Below are positions 33,765-34,192 of a stretch of 36,336 nt of DNA, piece after piece (the stretch's first letter is position 1; each line of letters starts with the position of its first letter). Source of the DNA: Desulfuromonas sp. Lineage in GTDB: Bacteria; Desulfobacterota; Desulfuromonadia; Desulfuromonadales; UBA2294. Under the pieces are notes generated by a model. The model ran no database searches. It had not been told where the DNA came from and worked only from the letters and a program-made list of their open reading frames with translations. The DNA is taken from the NCBI GenBank assembly GCA_002869615.1, contig PKUH01000079.1, positions 1 through 36,336 of the forward strand. Reading direction: 5' to 3'. The position numbers were made by a program, and so were the translations under genes.

Positions 33765-34100
33765 TTACTTCAGCCAATCATTATAAAGATCGTCGCTGAA
33801 GCCGATGATATAATCGTCACCGGCCCGGTAGGTCGGCGCGCGCAGATTACCGCTCGGCCCCATCGCCTTTTTCAGCACCGCTTCGCGGCCGTCGGCCGGA
33901 GTGAATGCCTCGACCTTCTTCCCCTTGGCGATCCGGATCGATTTTGCCGACGCGAGCATCGCCCAGGCGGCATCCTCATCAAACCTTGTTTTCGTGGCAT
34001 CAACAACCTCTTCAATTTCAACATTTTTTGGCTCAAGGAACCCCTGAGCTTTCTTGCAGGAGGTTCAGCCCTTTCTCAGGTAGGCCCAATCGATTTTCAT
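33765..34100 (-). CDS. ArsC-like selenoprotein (UGA codon 12 read as selenocysteine)
   Basis: This 111-residue thioredoxin-fold protein of the ArsC/Spx type begins MKIDWAYLRKG, then UGA, then TSCKKAQGFLE. The UGA is at 34065-34067. A U-x-x-C motif at the ArsC active-site position, an unbroken frame with GNLRAPTYRAGDDYIIGF at the C-terminus, and AAGGAG 7 nt before ATG 34100 show it is one gene. I recall NCBI naming such proteins ArsC family (seleno)protein in Geobacter relatives. The likely role is thiol/selenol redox chemistry; arsenate as substrate is not established. A tool unaware of recoding would call only 33765-33959 from a downstream start. Confidence 0.92.
34031..34049 (-). promoter_or_regulatory. 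bSECIS-like hairpin of the selenoprotein mRNA
   Basis: On the minus strand GCUCAGGG pairs with CCUUGAGC (eight pairs including one G-U) around a GUU loop. The loop starts 23 nt after the UGA and its first base is G. This fits the usual bacterial SECIS spacing and the loop-G rule, so it is a good SelB-binding candidate. Confidence 0.65.
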
Positions 34101-34192
34101 AATATTCTCCTTTGACGATGTTTTTCTAATTACATAGCACATTTTTCACCCATGGAAACGATTCGATTGCAAATAAACCGCGGCCAGCCCGG

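Follow-up and report, generated by a model that had tools for sequence, protein, structure and literature searches.

A predicted selenoprotein of the ArsC-related family NF041106 in a Desulfuromonas genome

The locus described here raises the question of whether a TGA at codon 12 of a small ArsC-like reading frame is decoded as selenocysteine (Sec) or terminates translation, and of what the encoded protein might do. It is located in a stretch of 36,336 nucleotides from Desulfuromonas sp. (contig PKUH01000079.1), referred to as the window. We consider it very likely (with a probability of about 0.93) that the gene encodes a selenoprotein of family NF041106, and the frame, its homologues, a downstream hairpin and the Sec machinery of the same genome are discussed in turn as they bear on this assignment.

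Reading frame and family membership

The frame (Table 1) extends from ATG to TAA, contains a single in-frame TGA, and translates into 111 residues (MKIDWAYLRKGUTSCKKAQGFLEPKNVEIEEVVDATKTRFDEDAAWAMLASAKSIRIAKGKKVEAFTPADGREAVLKKAMGPSGNLRAPTYRAGDDYIIGFSDDLYNDWLK) with G-U-T-S-C as the redox motif. A preliminary description of the locus had proposed a frame leading from a strong ribosome-binding site through the UGA to a normal C-terminus, and this is confirmed on the minus strand for start codon, Shine-Dalgarno sequence, TGA and stop codon alike. The neighbouring genes are 92 and 71 bases away, and based on this spacing the selenoprotein gene probably constitutes a single-gene unit.

The alignment with ‘ArsC family (seleno)protein’ entries that had been proposed as a check places the protein in NCBIfam NF041106 (ArsC_rel_Se_1): the match scores 122.7 bits at a curated cut-off of 85 bits, covers the full length of the profile (positions 1–107 of 107), and exhibits the Sec (or Cys) required at the UxxC site in the form of the TGA at codon 12 along with Cys15. 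There is thus no difference of substance between the protein and the family, Sec being found at the same place of the motif. Glutaredoxin models match only weakly, and the protein is not among the matches of Pfam ArsC (PF03960) above the gathering cut-off; for the 67 family members introduced below, weak PF03960 matches were obtained in 43, with a best E-value of 5e-4.

Table 1. Coordinates of the selenoprotein gene in the window and of the Sec machinery on contig C106 of the same genome.
Feature	Position	Strand	Evidence
ORF, ArsC-like selenoprotein (Sec12, TAA stop)	33765..34100	minus	frame, NF041106 match, homologues
UGA codon 12, predicted Sec (U12 of U-T-S-C)	34065..34067	minus	TGA in 67/67 family members
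Cys15 codon (TGC), presumed resolving cysteine	34056..34058	minus	Cys in 65/67, Ser in 2
bSECIS-like hairpin, 8-bp stem, GUU loop, begins 15 nt 3' of UGA	34031..34049	minus	folding, recoding, covariation
Shine-Dalgarno AAAGGAG, 5' of ATG	34107..34113	minus	sequence
Terminator-like hairpin and T-rich tail, 3' of stop codon	33725..33746	minus	pattern match only
tRNA-Sec (selC)	C106:43545-43636		75.8 bits
selA	C106:43982-45346		606 bits
selB	C106:45397-47256		380 bits
selD (L019)	G000:C106:47319-48242		365 bits; one in-frame TGA of its own

The UGA codon, its hairpin and the selenocysteine machinery

Homologues were pooled from three samples, that is, (i) a phylum sample, in which 28 of 395 genomes contain a match above cut-off, (ii) a sample of relatives, in which 11 of 58 do so, and (iii) 84,980 species genomes scanned with a pattern that reaches close relatives only, which yielded 37 loci. 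The resulting set comprises 67 distinct full-length proteins, including the one described here, and codon 12 is TGA in all of them. No Cys version was found among these 67 members, the scan being limited to close relatives; since the search queries had Cys in place of Sec, they did not penalise a Cys form. Homologues with neither Cys nor Sec at the site, which had been named as evidence that would speak against a selenoprotein, were likewise not encountered (0 of 67 lack the Sec codon). The second cysteine of the motif is conserved in 65 of the 67 members. Two homologues (L045:1477-1821 and L081:3036-3368) exhibit UxxS in place of UxxC, which suggests that the resolving cysteine is not strictly required and may be dispensable in some members.

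Codons 2–11 are of key importance for deciding between Sec insertion and termination. Their diversity across the 67 members amounts to 0.134, 0.065 and 0.516 at the first, second and third position, respectively, and variation mainly at third positions indicates that the part of the gene located 5' of the TGA is translated and under purifying selection. A translated 5' part excludes a TGA serving as stop with a start located downstream. The locus might otherwise be considered a broken gene or the result of a sequencing error, with only the remnant beyond an ordinary stop being translated, and translation table 11 indeed closes the frame at codon 12. Such a reading is extremely improbable in view of the invariant position of the TGA, the purifying selection upstream of it and the presence of the Sec machinery in the genome; the homologue set rules out the pseudogene and ordinary-stop readings.

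Two further sequences remained outside the full-length set. L096 is a fragment, and L069:4236-4565 combines the conserved start and the same TGA with an in-frame TAG at codon 20, which reflects either a broken gene or a fault in the assembly. The distribution among relatives is patchy, owing to loss, transfer or incomplete assembly: the gene is absent from a congener (G395; 87% complete) and from a relative of the same family (G396; 100% complete). Cultured bacteria that carry the gene include Malonomonas rubra and Desulfopila aestuarii. No relatives were found in viral contigs.

The hairpin, for which the preliminary description had specified an 8-bp stem with a GUU loop beginning 15 nt after the UGA, is present exactly as described (minus strand; 5' arm 34049-34042, loop 34041-34039, 3' arm 34038-34031). 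When considered as a single sequence it is unexceptional, having a folding energy of −11.6 kcal/mol with a z-score of −0.84, and 33 of 200 shuffles fold equally well. The comparison across the 67 members yields a mean minimum free energy of −8.46 kcal/mol for the hairpin segment, versus −5.12 kcal/mol in synonymous recodings, where the standard deviation of the set means is 0.28 and none of 300 recoded sets reaches the observed mean. For the fixed register, the proportion of paired cells is 73% versus 65% in column shuffles, and 36 double changes are observed versus 9.8, these covariation counts deriving from related sequences and not from independent events; none of 2000 column shuffles reaches the observed value of either pairing or double changes. 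Slid registers pair less (26–57%), but a slide of −2 still exhibits 32 double changes, so that the double-change count by itself is weak. As an individual example, an A to G change at +34, which converts a Glu into a Gly codon, is accompanied by C at the Ala wobble base in 9 of 9 cases, versus 6 of 51 with A. The first loop position is G in 57 of 67 members. The common register does not suit every homologue: a sizeable minority have a hairpin that is shifted or does not fit it, and some clades use another register. It is thus the family comparison, and not the single sequence, that supports the view of a hairpin under selection.

The genome also encodes the machinery for Sec incorporation. Genes selC, selA, selB and selD, which had been suggested as a further check, are all present and form one cluster on contig C106 (43545-48242; Table 1), and a genome devoid of selB and selC, which would have argued against the proposal, is thus not what is found. 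An in-frame TGA in selD is common among users of selenoproteins. Across the 41 genomes containing the NF041106 family or its distant relative, selA scores above cut-off in 39; the assemblies of the other two are fragmented, with a completeness of 78 and 90%.

Fold, active site and possible role

The AlphaFold2 model (pLDDT 95.1; pTM 0.87) predicts a thioredoxin-like fold with U12-x-x-C15 at the redox site. Structural searches, for which Foldseek was also used, identify Spx (3l78, 1z3e), YffB (1rw1) and the ArsC-related proteins 3gkx and 2m46 as the nearest solved structures (Z-scores 7.5–8.9, with values near 8 indicating a shared fold only; 15–27% sequence identity, or 16–27% for the entries named here), and a profile search against solved structures retrieves Spx, YffB and ArsC-related proteins with E-values of 3.4e-5 to 1.8e-4. 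All of these have the thioredoxin-like fold with a redox Cys at the place of U12, whereas the present protein has Sec. Hence, both the ArsC/Spx-like fold and the position of the UGA at the redox cysteine of these families, as put forward in the preliminary description, are supported by the model and by sequence, structure and profile comparisons. Residues W5, Y7, R9, G11, U12, L86, R87, P89, G100 and Y106 are among those invariant in the 67 members.

Does the ‘ArsC-like’ architecture imply arsenate reduction? In such a case, Sec12 would attack arsenate like Cys12 in ArsC of plasmid R773, with which the protein has the fold and the position of the catalytic residue in common, and an own-genome profile search revealed no other PF03960 ArsC protein. 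In R773 ArsC, arsenate is bound by R60, R94 and R107. Direct alignment with hhalign was not useful (Prob 0.3). When Spx and two intermediate proteins serve as a bridge to an R773 sequence 100% identical to annotated arsC genes, the alignment shows that two of these three arginines are not kept: R94 corresponds to A88 (Ala in 66 of 67 members) and R107 to G100. For R60 the assignment to K59 (Lys or Arg in 62 of 67) is ambiguous. Arsenic genes do not recur next to the gene at the ∼45 loci considered. We thus regard a selenium-dependent arsenate reductase as improbable, and ‘ArsC-like’ as a description of the fold: neither the residues nor the gene context support arsenate reduction. A redox-sensing regulator of the Spx/MgsR type, binding RNA polymerase and operating an Se–S switch, is marginally less probable still. 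Spx proteins are indeed the best solved relatives by both profile and fold, but only the fold is shared, and the Spx/MgsR profile TIGR01617 matches the protein far below threshold (18.8 bits at a cut-off of 75; residues 7–33).

The protein is probably a selenol/thiol-disulfide oxidoreductase. Reduction of disulfides, whether general or confined to particular clients, is a likelier role than arsenate reduction, and we favour it with some confidence. Comparative evidence suggests that SelB and Sec-tRNA would read the UGA of codon 12 as selenocysteine, directed by the hairpin just 3' of it. Based on the UxxC motif and the fold, the selenolate of Sec12 would then attack an oxidised substrate, Cys15 would resolve the adduct to yield an Se–S bond, and a cellular dithiol reductant, thioredoxin or glutaredoxin-like, would re-reduce this bond. 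Conserved gene neighbours do not name a partner, the most recurrent one being a generic sensor kinase at 6 of ∼45 loci. It is also conceivable, albeit rather doubtful, that within the Spx/ArsC fold the family forms a branch with obligate Sec and with a reaction or client of its own other than arsenate reduction, for which selenium cannot be replaced by sulfur.

A related protein and place among known selenoproteins

A second small Sec-containing protein was observed at L050:1468-1809 and L051:1486-1827, starting with MKVDFxCWxxUTTCRK and having UxxC at codon 11. It scores 80.0 and 72.7 bits, respectively, against TIGR01617 (cut-off 75) and 39 bits against NF041106, and is much closer to the former. 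L050 had been considered as a Cys form of the present family, there being no stop in the matched stretch; this was rejected, since the TGA is located just beyond that stretch and the protein is a different one. Weak matches with an internal TGA in further genomes of the phylum (G347, G250 and G385) may belong to the same type.

The gene described here is a further member of a selenoprotein family already known, and not a new one. ‘ArsC-like’ and ‘distant ArsC homolog’ selenoproteins were described in 2006 for Desulfotalea psychrophila and Desulfuromonas acetoxidans (PMC1794560); they share with the present protein the broad bacterial group, the named fold family and Sec, and, likened by description, they likely belong to the same family. 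An arsenate reductase-like UxxC protein is listed in a 2022 review (PMC9312934), and NF041106 appears as ‘Arsenate reductase-like protein’, a UxxC selenoprotein family, in a 2026 review (PMC13188914), which states that such proteins are still largely uncharacterised, in agreement with the earlier remark that the substrate is undescribed. The expectation that automatic annotation would lose the active site needs qualification: with the family listed in that review and curated in NCBIfam as Sec-containing, current annotation models can recover the gene.

The reading of this one gene is unsurprising; with it, a curated selenoprotein family whose biochemistry is uncharacterised gains one clean member. 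Since the site is always Sec in the sampled members, the function of the family is testable: with Cys in none of them, it is well suited to asking why selenium is needed.
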